Program-made: the position numbers and the translations under genes
Assembly: GCA_017535785.1 (NCBI GenBank)
Contig: JAFXTN010000034.1
Location: 1 to 44,169 of the forward strand
DNA: 44,169 bases
Source: Butyrivibrio sp.
Lineage (GTDB): Bacteria; Bacillota; Clostridia; Lachnospirales; Lachnospiraceae
Reading direction: 5' to 3'
The notes under the pieces: model-generated
What the model was told of the DNA's origin: nothing
The model's database searches: none
What the model saw: the letters and a program-made list of their open reading frames with translations, nothing else
In this document: positions 2,709 through 19,350 of the stretch, piece after piece
How positions within the stretch are numbered: position 1 is the stretch's first letter
Layout of the letters: the number at the start of each line of letters is the position of its first letter

Positions 2709-4412
2709 ATGAAAAAAAAGGTGATTCCGGCGATTGTTATAATCGCCCTTATTTTTATTATAGGAAGTATATATGCATCACAAATTTACAGACAGCATTT
2801 TTCTTATAGTGAAGAACAAAAAGATTTAAATGAGTATTTTGACATTACAGGGGATACTGACGTAGCGATCCTTCTGGGTAACGATTATCTTGAAGAAAGA
2901 GCAAAACTTCTGGACGGAACCTATTATATGGATATCAACGCAGTCCGTAAGTACCTTAATAGGAGATTTTATTACGGACAGGCAGACGGAGAGCTTGTTT
3001 ATACGACTCCGGATGCGATAATCACTGCAAAGATAGGCACAGGAACATACGAAAGTACCAAAGAAGGGGCAAAAGAGGAAGCTTATCAGATCGCAAGGCT
3101 TGAAGAAGACGGAACTCTTTTGGTTGCCCTTGATTATGTAAAGAAATATACTAATTTTTCATATACAAGCTTTACAGAGCCCAATCACCTTCAGATTGAT
3201 AAAACTTGGGAAGAGCAGGAGGTTGCTACAATTTCCAAGGCTACTCAGCTGAGAGTCAGAGGCGGAGTTAAGAGTGCAGTCATTGAAGAGCTTGCTGTAG
3301 GTGATAAGGTTATCGTTCTGGATCAGATGGATAAGTGGTCTAAGGTTAAGAGCGCTGATTCTTTCATAGGATTTGTTGAGAACAATAAATTAAAGGATAA
3401 GACCACATCAACTCCGATTCCCGTTACGGATTACAAGGAGCCCGAGTACACTTCGATCAAGAAGGATCACAAGATAAATATGGGCTTTCATAATATGAGT
3501 GGCCCCAGCGGAAATGATTCATTCAGTGAGGTAGTTTCACCTACAAAGAGTCTGAATGTCATTGCACCTACTTGGTTTATGGTGTCTGATAATTCCGGTT
3601 CCGTAGAGAGTTATGCTTCATCAAGCTATGTTGATTCTGCACATAGTAAGGGCCTGGAAGTATGGGCTGTTTTTGAGAACATTACATACAAAAAAGATAT
3701 TTCCATGACAGAAGTGCTTTCTCATGCAAGTTCAAGAAAAGCAATGATCGATTCTGTTGTAAGTAAGACACTTTCATGCGGAGCCGATGGTATCAATCTG
3801 GACTTTGAGGAAATTTCTAACGAAGACGGACAGTCATATATAGAGTTCGTTCGTGAGCTTTCTATAGCTTGTAGGGATAACGGACTGGTATTTTCAATAG
3901 ATAACTATGTACCCATGCATTTCAACGATCATTATGATCTTACCGAGCAGGGTATTGTTGCTGATTATGTTGTCATCATGGGATATGATGAGCACTATGG
4001 TGGATCTTCGGAGGTAGGATCGGTAGCATCTCTGGGATATGTAGAGAACGGTATCATCAATACTGTTGCCAAAGTTGATCCTTCAAAAGTTATAAACGCG
4101 GTTCCTTTTTACACAAGAATATGGCAGACCGCTGACGGAAAGGTCAGCAGTAAGGCATATCCGATGAAGAGTGCCAAAGAGTATATAAGCAACCATTCTA
4201 TCAATATGGAGTGGGATCCCGAAACTTCACAGGATTACGGCGAGTATACATCAAACGGAACCACATATCAGGTATGGATGGAGAATAAGGCATCACTCGA
4301 GCAGAAGATCAATGTAATGAAGAACCATAAGATCGCAGGTATTGCCGAGTGGGCTCTTGGAATGGAATCATCTGACGTCTGGGATGCAATTTCCGCTTAT
4401 GTCGAGGGATGA
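2709..4412 (+). CDS. Membrane-anchored glycoside hydrolase family 18 protein with SH3-like domain
   Basis: This 567-residue protein has an N-terminal signal-anchor helix (residues 5-23, VIPAIVIIALIFIIGSIYA). An N-terminal beta-rich region follows, then a bacterial SH3-like segment around residues 175-235 (TQLRVRGGVKSAVIEELAVG...WSKV), then a C-terminal GH18 barrel. The GH18 signature reads DGINLDFEE: the usual DxxDxDxE has Asn363 in place of the second Asp, but Asp360, Asp365 and the proton donor Glu367 are kept. The architecture resembles spore or vegetative wall glucosaminidases such as the YaaH/SleL group, so action on peptidoglycan or chitin-like sugars outside the membrane is likely. The substrate itself is not visible. 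The sua5 start follows its stop by 3 bases, so the two are probably co-transcribed. Confidence 0.85.
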   Translation: MKKKVIPAIVIIALIFIIGSIYASQIYRQHFSYSEEQKDLNEYFDITGDTDVAILLGNDYLEERAKLLDGTYYMDINAVRKYLNRRFYYGQADGELVYTTPDAIITAKIGTGTYESTKEGAKEEAYQIARLEEDGTLLVALDYVKKYTNFSYTSFTEPNHLQIDKTWEEQEVATISKATQLRVRGGVKSAVIEELAVGDKVIVLDQMDKWSKVKSADSFIGFVENNKLKDKTTSTPIPVTDYKEPEYTSIKKDHKINMGFHNMSGPSGNDSFSEVVSPTKSLNVIAPTWFMVSDNSGSVESYASSSYVDSAHSKGLEVWAVFENITYKKDISMTEVLSHASSRKAMIDSVVSKTLSCGADGINLDFEEISNEDGQSYIEFVRELSIACRDNGLVFSIDNYVPMHFNDHYDLTEQGIVADYVVIMGYDEHYGGSSEVGSVASLGYVENGIINTVAKVDPSKVINAVPFYTRIWQTADGKVSSKAYPMKSAKEYISNHSINMEWDPETSQDYGEYTSNGTTYQVWMENKASLEQKINVMKNHKIAGIAEWALGMESSDVWDAISAYVEG

Positions 4413-15283: not shown

Positions 15284-15961
15284 ATGAAAATAAATAAACC
15301 TGTAGATGCTGTCTTATTTGACCTTGACGGAACACTTACGGACACAGAGAGATTCTATCAGACTGCTTGGCCTAAGGCGCTTGCGCATTTTGGATATGAA
15401 ATGGAAAAGGATATGCCGCTTAAGCTTCGTTCTCTAGGCAGACCTTTTGCAATACAACAGTTTAAAGACTGGTTCGGAGAAGACTTTGATTATCAGAAAG
15501 TCAGGGAATACAGAAAAGAAATAGTGGAAGAGATGATAAAAGAAAATGGTATTCCTCTTAAGCCGGGAGCAAAAGAGATCTTGACGTGGCTAAGAGAAAA
15601 CGGGATACTGACAGCGCTTGTGACCGCTAATGATTATCAGAGAGCGGAGAGATATCTTAAAAAGATCGGGCTGTTTGAGCTTTTTGATAAGATAATCTGT
15701 GCAAACATGGTAGAAAAAGGAAAACCCGCACCTGATATGTACGCTTTTGCAAGTAAAGAACTTGGTCTTCCGCCCGAGAGAACCTTCGCAGTGGAAGATT
15801 CTCCGAACGGCGTGACGAGTGCATATCTGGCCGGGTGTAAAGTCATAATGATTCCGGATCTGACAGAACCGGATGAAGAGCTTAAGTCAAAGCTCTATGC
15901 AAGACTGGATAACCTGCTTATGATCAAGGGATTTTTTTCTCAGCCTCAAGAGAAGCTCTGA
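15284..15961 (+). CDS. HAD-superfamily hydrolase, beta-phosphoglucomutase/phosphatase-like
   Basis: A 225-residue HAD subfamily IA enzyme with a helical cap. Motif I is FDLDGTLTDTE (nucleophile and acid/base Asp), motif II is the Thr in LVTANDY, motif III is the Lys in EKGKPAPDMY and motif IV is AVEDSPNGV. The sequence is typical of sugar-phosphate phosphatases or beta-phosphoglucomutase-like enzymes; the substrate is not evident. Its 3' end overlaps the 3' end of the convergent prs gene by 38 bases, so no terminator fits between them. Confidence 0.88.
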   Translation: MKINKPVDAVLFDLDGTLTDTERFYQTAWPKALAHFGYEMEKDMPLKLRSLGRPFAIQQFKDWFGEDFDYQKVREYRKEIVEEMIKENGIPLKPGAKEILTWLRENGILTALVTANDYQRAERYLKKIGLFELFDKIICANMVEKGKPAPDMYAFASKELGLPPERTFAVEDSPNGVTSAYLAGCKVIMIPDLTEPDEELKSKLYARLDNLLMIKGFFSQPQEKL

Positions 15962-17141
15962 GCTCTCCGCTGTTGTATCTCTCAATGATATTGTTGATAC
16001 GCTCAACGGGGTTGAGAAGGTCGCTTATTGATGCATCGTGGTTAAGTGTATCGATGAGATAAGCGATGTACTTGCTCATATCGCAGCTTATATACCACTC
16101 ACGTGAAAGAAGCTCGGGAGTCTGGTATATAAGGTTTGTTGTAAAGATCCTGTCGATAAGACCTTCTTCATAAGCCTTATCAAACTCTGCAAGACCGCCT
16201 GTGAAAAGACCAAATGTAGAGAATGCATATATTCTTGCAGCCTTACGCTGTTTAAGTGCTTTTGCAACATCGAGGATACTCTCTCCTGAAGAGATCATAT
16301 CATCAACGATGATAACTGACTTTCCTTCAACACTTGTTCCGAGGAACTCATGTGATACGATAGGATTTCTTCCGTCAACTACCTGTGTGTAGTCACGTCT
16401 CTTATAGAACATTCCGACATCAAGACCAAGTACGCTGGCAAGATAGATTGCTCTGCTCATACCACCTTCATCAGGTGAGATTACCATCATGTTGTCTGAA
16501 TCGATCTTAAGATCCCATACGTTTCTGAGAAGGGCCTTAATAAACTGATATGTTGTTCTTACGGTCTCAAAACCGTTAAGAGGAATAGCATTTTGAACTC
16601 TCGGATCATGTGCGTCAAAGGTGATGATATTATCTACACCCATGTTTACAAGCTCCTGAAGAGCTATAGCACAGTCGAGAGACTCTCTTGAACTTCTTTT
16701 ATGCTGTCTTGATTCGTAGAGGAAAGGCATGATAACAGTGATCCTTCTTGCCTTTCCGCCGACAGCGGCGATGAGTCTTTTAAGATCCTGATAATGATCA
16801 TCAGGAGACATATGATTTTCCTGTCCGAAAAGAGAATAGGTTTGTGAGTAGTTACATACATCTACAAGCAGATACAGATCGTCACCACGAACTGATGCTT
16901 TAATGACGCCCTTTGCCTCGCCTGTTCCGAATCTGGGAACCTCGGCATCTAAGATATAAGAGGGGCGCTCATAACCTGTGAAGGCTAAGCTTCCTTTATG
17001 CTCGTTCTCTCTTTCTGCTCTCCATTTAACGAGGTAGTAATCGACTTTTTCTGCTAAAGGCTTAACTCCCTTGAGTGGAATGATTCCGAGGGAACCTACA
17101 GGAATTGTCTCCAGATTACGTTTCTCTTCTCTTTTTGACAT
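15924..17141 (-). CDS. prs: Ribose-phosphate pyrophosphokinase, long form
   Basis: Makes PRPP from ribose-5-phosphate and ATP for nucleotide, His and Trp synthesis. At 405 residues it is much longer than the usual 315 or so. The core is kept: MPFLYESRQHKRSSRESLDC, the FDAHDPRVQNAIPLNGFETV segment, SPDEGGMSRA, the KRRDYT flexible-loop motif and the PRPP-binding loop VIIVDDMISSGES. Extra sequence lies at the N-terminus (about 60 residues before the first core strand) and at the C-terminus. It is the last gene of the dnaD-dnaI-prs operon: its ATG overlaps the dnaI stop by 1 base (TAATG). Confidence 0.93.
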   Translation of the reverse strand: MSKREEKRNLETIPVGSLGIIPLKGVKPLAEKVDYYLVKWRAERENEHKGSLAFTGYERPSYILDAEVPRFGTGEAKGVIKASVRGDDLYLLVDVCNYSQTYSLFGQENHMSPDDHYQDLKRLIAAVGGKARRITVIMPFLYESRQHKRSSRESLDCAIALQELVNMGVDNIITFDAHDPRVQNAIPLNGFETVRTTYQFIKALLRNVWDLKIDSDNMMVISPDEGGMSRAIYLASVLGLDVGMFYKRRDYTQVVDGRNPIVSHEFLGTSVEGKSVIIVDDMISSGESILDVAKALKQRKAARIYAFSTFGLFTGGLAEFDKAYEEGLIDRIFTTNLIYQTPELLSREWYISCDMSKYIAYLIDTLNHDASISDLLNPVERINNIIERYNSGELRASLEAEKKIP

Positions 17142-18124
17142 TACTGAAAATCCTCACTTTCTTTTTTGGCAATCTTTTTGATCTTACGAATGTCCTGTCC
17201 GGTTAATTTAAGAAGCGTATAGTTACTTGTAACTCGCGAAAAGATTCTATCCGAATAGGTTGCCTGTAATTCTTCTAGAGAAAGGTTGGTAGTAATGATC
17301 GTAGACTTTTTCCTCAAATCTCTCTCATTGAGGCATGAGAAAAGCTCAGATGCCACAAAGCTGTTCGTTCGCTCAGTACCGAGATCGTCGATTATAAGCA
17401 ATTCGCAATTGTATATATCATCATATATACCCTTAAGTTCCTGCTTGTTGCGATAGTCGAATGAGTTCTCGGCCAGTAGTTCGAACAGTCCGGAAGAACT
17501 AAAATAAATAACCGAATGCCCCTTTTTGAGCAGTTCGTTGGCAACACAAGTAGACAAGAATGATTTGCCAACACCAACTGTACCATAAATGAATAGATTT
17601 TGGTAGTCGGAGTTAAAATTATTTATAAATTTTTCCGAAACCGCCACAGCGCCCTTAAAACGCTTTAAATCCTCGCCTTGATAATATTTCTCGGTCAGGA
17701 GTTTGAAGTTTGCGGTTTTAGCTAAAGCCTTAAGATTGGAACGGTCATAGAGAGTTTCTATGATCTTTTGTTTGAAACAGTGACACTTTTCGTTGCCGAT
17801 ATAACCGGTATCCTTGCAGTCACTGCAGGTATAACCCATATCAAGATAATCGTCAGAAAAACCTGCCTCGGTCAAAAGAATCTTCTTTTGGCGTGCAAGT
17901 TCTTCAAGTTCGCGCTTTAATGCGCTCTTGTCCAGTCTCTCTCCCGAGAGAAGCCTTCTTCCGAAGTCTACACTGGCTGTTGAAGTCTTGTCCTCGAGCT
18001 CTTTATAGCCCGGAACGGTATCATATACATAACGCTGTCTCTCTTCAAGCTCCTGTCTGTGGAGAGAGCGTCTTTCTTCATATTCATGCATTATTTCGTC
18101 GAATTGAGCGTTGGTCAATGCCAT
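17141..18124 (-). CDS. dnaI: Helicase loader, DnaC/DnaI-type AAA+ ATPase
   Basis: Loads the replicative helicase onto DNA at initiation and restart. The 327-residue protein has an N-terminal helical helicase-binding part, a zinc-binding cluster (CSDCKDTGYIGNEKCHC) and a C-terminal AAA+ module. That module has Walker A GTVGVGKSFL, Walker B LLIIDDLGTE, a sensor region TIITTNLS and an arginine-finger region SDRIFSRV. The zinc cluster distinguishes it from IS21 IstB ATPases, and no transposase is nearby. AGAGGAG lies 6 nt ahead of the ATG. It follows the DnaD-domain gene and is separated from it by a folded 130-nt spacer that may regulate its translation (see findings). Confidence 0.92.
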   Translation of the reverse strand: MALTNAQFDEIMHEYEERRSLHRQELEERQRYVYDTVPGYKELEDKTSTASVDFGRRLLSGERLDKSALKRELEELARQKKILLTEAGFSDDYLDMGYTCSDCKDTGYIGNEKCHCFKQKIIETLYDRSNLKALAKTANFKLLTEKYYQGEDLKRFKGAVAVSEKFINNFNSDYQNLFIYGTVGVGKSFLSTCVANELLKKGHSVIYFSSSGLFELLAENSFDYRNKQELKGIYDDIYNCELLIIDDLGTERTNSFVASELFSCLNERDLRKKSTIITTNLSLEELQATYSDRIFSRVTSNYTLLKLTGQDIRKIKKIAKKESEDFQ

Positions 18125-18133
18125 GTGATTCTC

Positions 18134-18251
18134 CTCTTAGCACAAAGTTATGCCCTGCACGTGTTTTGGGGAAGGCTGTGCGCCGCCGCCAAACCAAAGT
18201 ACAGGGCTTGCTTTTGTGTAACTCTTACCGATTCCCCAACCGGATAAGAGT
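18134..18251 (-). ncRNA. Candidate structured RNA or leader between dnaD and dnaI
   Basis: In minus-strand order, hairpin A (18251-18221) pairs ACTCTTA plus CCG with CGG plus TAAGAGT, with one bulged base and a 10-nt loop containing TTGGGGAA. Hairpin B (18218-18141) is closed by CACAAA/TTTGTG and by GCCCTG/CAGGGC. Its large internal region contains TTCCCCAA (minus strand, 18173-18166), a perfect 8-nt complement of loop A. The 5' arm of hairpin A (CTCTTA) could also pair with TAAGAG (18134-18139), next to the dnaI ribosome binding site. I recognise no Rfam family. The fold is read by eye and not computed. Confidence 0.5.
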
Positions 18252-18252
18252 A

Positions 18253-19350
18253 TTAATTGTCCAGAAGTTTCTTTTCAAGTTCAGCAAAATCATATGTATT
18301 TTGCTGGAACTGATTGAAACGGTTCTGGGCGCCGCCATGGCGAATATATGATTCGTCAGAGCGGAGTTTGCTGTCAATGGATGACACGGAAGCCTTCGAT
18401 TTCTTCTTGCGAAGATCGGCGGTAAAGTCAGCATCTAGTCTGGCAATATCCTCCCTGTTCTTAACCTTACTATCATGCCAGCTTCGAAGAATGCCGTCGC
18501 AATATCTAAGGCGATTCTTCTGTGTAGCCAGAACAGTGCGGTCGCAGGCTTCCATGATGATATCCATTGAAAATCCCAACTCTCCACGCCAGGAACGGAT
18601 AATGTTTCCTTCCTTTTCCGTGGGGTTATTTTCCATACCGAGTGCTTTCATGATCTCGACGATTTCGGGATCACGTTTGTAATTTTCCACGCGAGCCTGT
18701 TTTGGCGTTTTGATGCCTTGCTGAGCCCAGTTGATAGCCACCTTTTCTACATACCGGAAATCAGCTTTATGATTATCGACGCAGTATTGCATCAGATAGT
18801 CCAATAGATCATCGGAAAACTTAAGTTCGTCTTTGATGTAGAACAGTGTCATGATCTCTGTTGAAGTAAGAGGTCTGTTGAAATACTGTTCAGCGGGAAA
18901 GAGAATGCTTGACTCCGAAGACTGCTTGAAGGAACGAAGCTGTGCGGCAGAGTAGCTCGGCTTTTCCGGAATACCGTCCGTGACTTCGGATTTAACTGAA
19001 GTTACGGGTTTAAGAACAGTTTCACTCTTTCTTGTGGAAACCTTCACGGGAGATGCGATATCCTCCATGTGGATGCCGGTGAGATTGCCCATGGCATCAT
19101 GTTCCAAGCTGATAAGCTCTTTCTTTTCCCAATATTTAAGTGCTCGTATTACATCCTTTTCTGTATGGTTGAATTTATCCGCCAGAGCTGAAACACTGGT
19201 GGGTAAATTTGCATTCATCATCCTGAGCAGATAAAGATAGATCTTTATCTGTGCGTCATTGGCATCTTGCATATATTCATCAATGAATATATTGGAAACA
19301 TTCGTAGAATCCTCCCCAAGATTATGACTTATAGTTACTCGCCCCATCAT
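18253..19350 (-). CDS. dnaD: DnaD-domain replication initiation/restart protein
   Basis: A 365-residue primosome protein. The N-terminal part (about residues 1-105) is a winged-helix region (QIKIYLYLLRMM...SVSALADKFNHTEKDVIRALKYWEKKELI). A linker with low complexity follows. Two DnaD/DnaB_2-type helical domains come next, at about 165-235 and 240-310, each ending in the typical Y-xxx-I/V-xxx-W signature (YVEKVAINW and YCDGILRSW). Two such domains recall DnaB of Bacillus as much as DnaD, so the exact orthology is open. It heads an operon with dnaI and prs. A TATAAT -10 box lies at 19396-19391 on the minus strand and a cluster of DnaA-box-like sites lies about 80-250 bases further upstream. Confidence 0.9.
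   Translation of the reverse strand: MMGRVTISHNLGEDSTNVSNIFIDEYMQDANDAQIKIYLYLLRMMNANLPTSVSALADKFNHTEKDVIRALKYWEKKELISLEHDAMGNLTGIHMEDIASPVKVSTRKSETVLKPVTSVKSEVTDGIPEKPSYSAAQLRSFKQSSESSILFPAEQYFNRPLTSTEIMTLFYIKDELKFSDDLLDYLMQYCVDNHKADFRYVEKVAINWAQQGIKTPKQARVENYKRDPEIVEIMKALGMENNPTEKEGNIIRSWRGELGFSMDIIMEACDRTVLATQKNRLRYCDGILRSWHDSKVKNREDIARLDADFTADLRKKKSKASVSSIDSKLRSDESYIRHGGAQNRFNQFQQNTYDFAELEKKLLDN

Follow-up and report, generated by a model that had tools for sequence, protein, structure and literature searches.

A conserved structured RNA in the dnaD–dnaI spacer of a Butyrivibrio clade

Between dnaD and dnaI, one clade of Butyrivibrio carries a conserved structured RNA whose pairing, judged by comparison of relatives, is kept through two-sided changes in hairpin A and stem P3, while no single pair is significant in a tree-aware test. 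In the window, meaning here the whole analysed stretch of 44,169 nucleotides (contig JAFXTN010000034.1), the RNA is about 110 nt long, spans 18251–18141 on the minus strand, and consists of hairpin A followed by the long hairpin B (stems P1–P4). It is a new orphan cis-regulatory RNA by the measure of Rfam 15, which gives no match at threshold, and of the main texts of the literature searched. We give about an even chance to the reading that it is a clade-specific, intercistronic, cis-acting RNA that is recognised by a factor and tunes dnaI-prs against murC-dnaD at the transcript level.

The minus strand of the window encodes murC, dnaD, dnaI, and prs in a row, a putative operon. The dnaD gene (18253..19350) is marked by a DnaB_2 domain match, and the dnaI-like helicase loader gene (17141..18124), which matches an IstB-like ATPase, is named from homology and position. 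The ribose-phosphate pyrophosphokinase gene prs (15924..17141) overlaps dnaI by one base. The products of dnaD and dnaI are DNA-replication proteins. The dnaI ATG is at 18124, and the dnaD–dnaI gap measures 128 nt. A promoter-like TTGACA-18-AATCAT (18348–18377, minus strand) is located within the 3' end of dnaD, roughly 100 nt upstream of the element. The last four sense codons of dnaD, LLDN, and the stop codon occupy 18253..18267 on the minus strand. These sense codons are unusually conserved in RNA-bearing loci (CTT in 19 of 19, CTG in 18, GAC in 18, and AAC in 17) and more variable elsewhere, and the LLDN end ranks fourth for conservation among 173 four-codon runs. This pattern is suggestive that constraint on the element may extend upstream into the dnaD coding end, which is not claimed here; L129 has no RNA, yet its terminal dnaD codons are the same.

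Hairpin A (18221..18251, minus strand) begins at the second nucleotide past the dnaD stop codon and pairs ACTCTTA (18251–18245) with TAAGAGT (18227–18221). Its conserved 12-nt tip reads GGTTGGGGAATC in the window and GATTGGGGAATC in most relatives, and its predicted fold has a GGGG loop closed by UU/AA. The conserved loop A strand, TTGGGGAA (18232..18239), is the complement of a strand of hairpin B and a candidate for pairing with it. In hairpin B, the outer stem P1 joins CACAAA (18213..18218) to TTTGTG (18141..18146), and P2 joins GCCCTGTAC (18199..18207) to GTGCAGGGC (18152..18160), which is GTACAGGGC in most relatives. Further in are P3, formed by TTTGG (18189..18193) and CCAAA (18165..18169), and P4, formed by GGC (18182..18184) and GCC (18174..18176), all on the minus strand. 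The outermost pair of P3 is absent from the minimum-energy fold. The preliminary description had reported hairpin A with its TTGGGGAA loop and an exact 8-nt complement, TTCCCCAA (18166..18173), inside hairpin B, and both are there on the minus strand. The complement is not free in the predicted fold, as it comprises a TT bulge and part of the P3 3' arm: CCCCAA pairs within hairpin B, partly in P3 and partly in the GG/CC step just above, leaving the two T as the sole unpaired bases. Downstream, the P1 end and the dnaI ATG are 16 nt apart, and the dnaI ribosome binding region, TAAGAGGAG (18131..18139, minus strand), falls outside the conserved RNA.

The predicted folding energy of 18255–18120 is -50 kcal/mol, whereas 200 shuffles average -35.6 (sd 3.89; z -3.70) and one of them was as good. 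This stability and the recurrence of the same element in relatives support the earlier proposal of a structured RNA, here a conserved one. A terminator scan of the window detected no terminator-like site within the element. In L160, a terminator-like run of six T follows hairpin B by four bases on the minus strand, the sole such case among the loci viewed. In L016 (2803–2949), an insertion of about 33 nt is placed in the P4 loop and the remainder of the element is intact; thus, the P4 loop tolerates inserts.

A DnaI scan of genome contigs yielded 80 dnaI loci, 38 of which have the same element in the dnaD–dnaI spacer. The others mostly have short spacers, and a few have longer ones with unrelated palindromes. 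Alignment A2 comprises 32 of 39 sequences (that of the window and those of the 38 loci), excluding L006, L010, and L048 (identical), L061 (near-identical), L016 (long loop), and L020 and L024 (no hairpin A). The covariance model R1, built on A2, finds the element in 43 of the genus's 79 genomes; two of 43 loci (L020, L024) lack hairpin A. Samples of the family (2 of 397 genomes, 334 genera), the order (13 of 392 genomes, 173 genera), and the phylum (2 of 398 genomes, 266 genera) gave matches in this genus only, under stricter filters that could miss weak matches and in samples that overlap. In the genome of the window itself, a single full match was accompanied by three 14-base matches at E 4.9.

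The element is between dnaD and dnaI in each locus with readable flanks. All 38 RNA-bearing loci among the 80 have dnaD before it and dnaI after it. Both flanks are also found in 29 of the 30 R1-matched loci L085–L114 (the window copy, L113, included), whose species overlap with those of the 80 loci; L106 is at a contig end. In L158, L159, and L160, the dnaI start is downstream of the element. The tip of hairpin A starts at most 16 nt past the dnaD stop codon in 31 of 40 loci and 19–54 nt past it in the other nine, and the distance from the P2 end to the dnaI ATG ranges from 23 to 379 nt (median 58, n=42). An A tip anchored to dnaD and a loose distance to dnaI favour a cis-acting intercistronic element that is recognised by a factor and acts at the transcript level. 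A compact, conserved RNA loosely spaced from dnaI could also be a trans-acting sRNA processed from the operon mRNA, but it is seen solely in the dnaD–dnaI gap and the window scan revealed no terminator of its own, so we consider this origin unlikely.

The distance from the P2 end to dnaI is 222–379 nt in L030/L081, L031/L049, and L033/L060/L061, and a long palindrome is found there in L030/L081. The apparent difference between L149 and L146 is, by eye, a palindrome-bounded insertion. Two loci from another branch of the genus, L134 and L136, have a different hairpin in the dnaD–dnaI spacer, and in L134 a TTCCCC stretch could pair, by eye, with GGGGAACA just before the dnaI start. In G040 (L152), G045 (L155), G056 (no locus), and G059 (L156), the dnaI matches contain one in-frame stop, which may reflect a match overrunning the gene end.

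A mobile or multicopy element was considered and rejected, as the genomes of the genus that carry it have it at a single locus, save for weaker opposite-strand R1 matches at the same place, which are echoes of the near-palindromic core, and G075, where the element is on two short contigs. The L028 copy has no match in plasmid and phage collections. Viral contigs gave 1 and 11 pattern hits, and R1 run up to E 1 gave two matches, both judged chance: L123 (20.7 bits, E 0.011), off the pattern site and with no core, and L116 (14.6 bits), where the matched reading frame looks TPR-like by eye. A coding explanation was also rejected, as indels of 1 nt and longer among relatives make a conserved frame unlikely.

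Among the 36 genomes of the genus without a match, 34 have dnaI. In 30 loci from these genomes, the spacers are 1 to 306 nt long (at most 27 nt in 20), and R1 run up to E 10 found no match in the 30. A DnaI tree with 114 tips places all 42 RNA-bearing ones together in a single clade (48 tips, support 0.964). Six tips of this clade are RNA-less: L129, the pair L128 and L017, and L036–L038, which are dnaI copies in another context. Some inner supports are low; with that limit, a single gain followed by two or more losses agrees with the tree. By the same tree, the element is dispensable, being absent from L128/L017 and L129 inside the clade. Relatives with a short spacer, which the preliminary description had held to count against the element, do so only in part: they are found outside the clade and in two lineages inside it. 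No dnaD, murC, or prs match accompanies the RNA-less dnaI copies of L036, L037, and L038 (dnaI at 3001) within the 7-kb locus. The L036 copy follows an ORF that by eye resembles a replicative DnaB helicase. Judged by strain name, three genomes have both kinds of dnaI.

Pairing was compared between species in 17 representatives, hand-picked from the 43 RNA-bearing sequences, one for each clade as read from a tree. The arm–arm duplex of hairpin A averages -7.72 kcal/mol within species and -4.05 kcal/mol when species are permuted, and that of P3 averages -3.30 and -1.76 kcal/mol; none of 5000 permutations equalled either. Co-variation is weak in P1 (permutation fraction 0.034). P2 is nearly invariant, with every cell paired in the 32 sequences and a single compensatory change, at the first pair in L160, and is too invariant for its co-variation to be judged. 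Across A2, 91.1% of cells form standard pairs compared to 86.9% after shuffling, and both sides change in 15 of 38 pairs; none of the 500 shuffles or the slid versions scored as high. The check for co-variation proposed earlier thus succeeds for the hairpin A arms under permutation but not in the tree-aware all-pairs test of 37 sequences, where no pair reached E<0.05 and the best (E 1.2) was a P3 pair. That set left out L020, L024, L016, identical copies, and L161 (its contig ends before dnaI) from the 43.

The proposed pairs include 91 G-U cells versus 30 A-C cells, an excess that favours an RNA strand in the dnaI sense and stems partly from drawing the structure on that strand. This asymmetry is the point against a DNA-level element, either a protein site or a cruciform. 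The near-palindromic core and the replication roles of the flanking gene products are compatible with such an element, which we nevertheless regard as very unlikely.

Sequence is constrained unevenly along the RNA. Over 136 pairs of the 17 representatives, the P2–P4 core without its loop has a mean pairwise identity of 0.881, and the 12-nt tip of hairpin A reaches 0.879. The corresponding values are 0.399 for fourfold dnaI sites, 0.415 for the lower stem of A, and 0.335 for four P4-loop columns. It thus appears that pairing alone maintains some parts and sequence maintains others, the pattern expected of a recognised core. As the core sequence is frozen along with the pairing, the fold is probably recognised by a factor, which could be a protein, an RNase, or a ligand. 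As a rival reading, the RNA could be a small-molecule riboswitch or aptamer for dnaI-prs, responding, for example, to a nucleotide or a PRPP-related ligand. A frozen core between freely varying outer stems and the placement of prs directly downstream of dnaI agree with a riboswitch. On the other side are the single genomic context, the lack of a recognisable expression platform, and the fact that dnaI is not a metabolic gene. Additionally, the earlier statement that the RNA belongs to no known riboswitch family stands, with no Rfam family at threshold and no riboswitch among the sub-threshold matches. On balance, a riboswitch is improbable. A hairpin that does nothing but stop exonucleases between dnaD and dnaI, as a stabiliser or processing signal for an mRNA segment, would be served by a stable hairpin B shortly past the dnaD stop codon. 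A pure blocker should not require a frozen P2 sequence and A tip, however, and this explanation is also one that we doubt.

All eight pairs between loop A and TTCCCCAA are standard in 28 of the 32 aligned sequences; four of these pairs (columns 17–20 with 91–94) are invariant. Both sides are nearly invariant, and permutation among the 17 representatives (fraction 0.825) reveals no co-variation beyond conservation; the number of paired cells was equalled in 18 of 500 shuffles and the covariation score in 10 of 500, again with near-invariant strands. In L019, UU changes to CC opposite GG, consistent with the pairing, and L029 does likewise at one of two positions. At least one mismatch occurs in each of L019, L028, L029, L046, L158, and L160. 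Of the two loci without hairpin A, L024 also breaks the B strand and L020 retains it. Full kissing and P3 are mutually exclusive, since the B strand also serves as the 3' arm of P3, which co-varies. A nearest-neighbour estimate, which models kissing energies poorly, puts the net cost of exchanging P3 for kissing at a mean of +2.5 kcal/mol in 17 sequences and -0.3 in the window.

In the pistol ribozyme, the loop of a small hairpin is complementary to a strand inside another hairpin. The complementarity of loop A to an internal strand of hairpin B recalls this general layout, and a self-cleaving ribozyme would account for a hairpin combined with such a strand. In contrast to pistol, the internal strand of the element also forms the co-varying P3, and no ribozyme family appears among the Rfam matches, up to E 5 for the window and E 10 for three relatives. 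A ribozyme activity, which by analogy might be imagined, is extremely unlikely.

The preliminary description also proposed a switch in which the 5' arm of hairpin A pairs with either its own 3' arm or the dnaI ribosome binding site (RBS). The observation behind it is sound: the 3' arm TAAGAGT recurs as TAAGAGG at 18139–18133, in the dnaI RBS, and CTCTTA pairs there over 6 bp. This TAAGAG match is a local feature of the window that is common to the close relatives L005 and L006. Pairing between arm and RBS is not matched within species, as the mean energy is -4.68 for own pairs and -4.43 between species (sd 0.22, fraction 0.127, n=40 loci), and -4.56 and -4.86 (fraction 0.842) in the 17 representatives. 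Moreover, the variable distance of 23–379 nt between the P2 end and the ATG speaks against the switch, as does the unpaired probability of at least 0.69 predicted for six of the eight Shine–Dalgarno (SD) bases in the window. RBS sequestering as a conserved mechanism is not borne out by these sequence comparisons, and we regard it as very improbable that the 5' arm controls the dnaI RBS.

Rfam 15 contains no match to the window at the gathering threshold. At relaxed thresholds, the window and three relatives gave matches far below threshold, to different families each time. No description of the element was found in the literature searched: the main texts of PMC11109978 and PMC8632094 contain no mention of dnaI, dnaD, Butyrivibrio, or Lachnospira, and that of PMC11109978 also has no occurrence of "kissing" or "primosom". 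The element resembles the orphan cis-regulatory RNA motifs proposed by comparative genomics in its conserved core, co-varying stems, and fixed gene neighbour, with no ligand or protein assigned. Unlike those motifs, it was found only in part of one genus, sits between two genes right past a stop codon, and has no Rfam 15 family at threshold. The EAR RNA, an intra-operon processive antitermination element of Bacilli, is a structured RNA of similar size located between two genes within an operon; the element here is beside other genes and matches no Rfam family of any kind at threshold. CsrA recognises ANGGA loops. The element is like CsrA-controlled leaders in having a GGA-containing hairpin loop upstream of an SD sequence, and csrA is encoded in the window's genome (G000). 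However, loop A is GGGGA rather than ANGGA, the distance to the SD varies, and the frozen hairpin B would not be explained.

How a factor-recognised, cis-acting RNA might work can be outlined from its position. In the window, the 16 nt between P1 and the ATG are too few for a promoter, which suggests that dnaI is transcribed through the element or from within it. The dnaI mRNA would then carry the element, and dnaI is probably tuned by it. By position, the target of control would be dnaI-prs. The factor-bound fold would set dnaI-prs output relative to murC-dnaD through processing, stability, or elongation and not by covering the RBS. As an unproven proposal, hairpin A would probably either dock on the UUCCC strand within hairpin B or compete for it. 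A more elaborate possibility, which we rate as quite improbable, is a bistable RNA gated by dnaD translation, which would tie together the supply of two primosome proteins and that of PRPP. Loop A would compete with the P3 5' strand for a shared UUCCCYRA strand. A ribosome that stops at the end of dnaD would cover hairpin A, so that dnaD translation would pick the fold and thereby dnaI-prs output.

If the element sets DnaI against DnaD, or both against PRPP synthesis, it would represent RNA-level control of primosome supply; to our knowledge, none has been described in Clostridia. Given the apparent single gain, the apparent losses, and the highly conserved core, cultivable rumen bacteria offer a way to test this.
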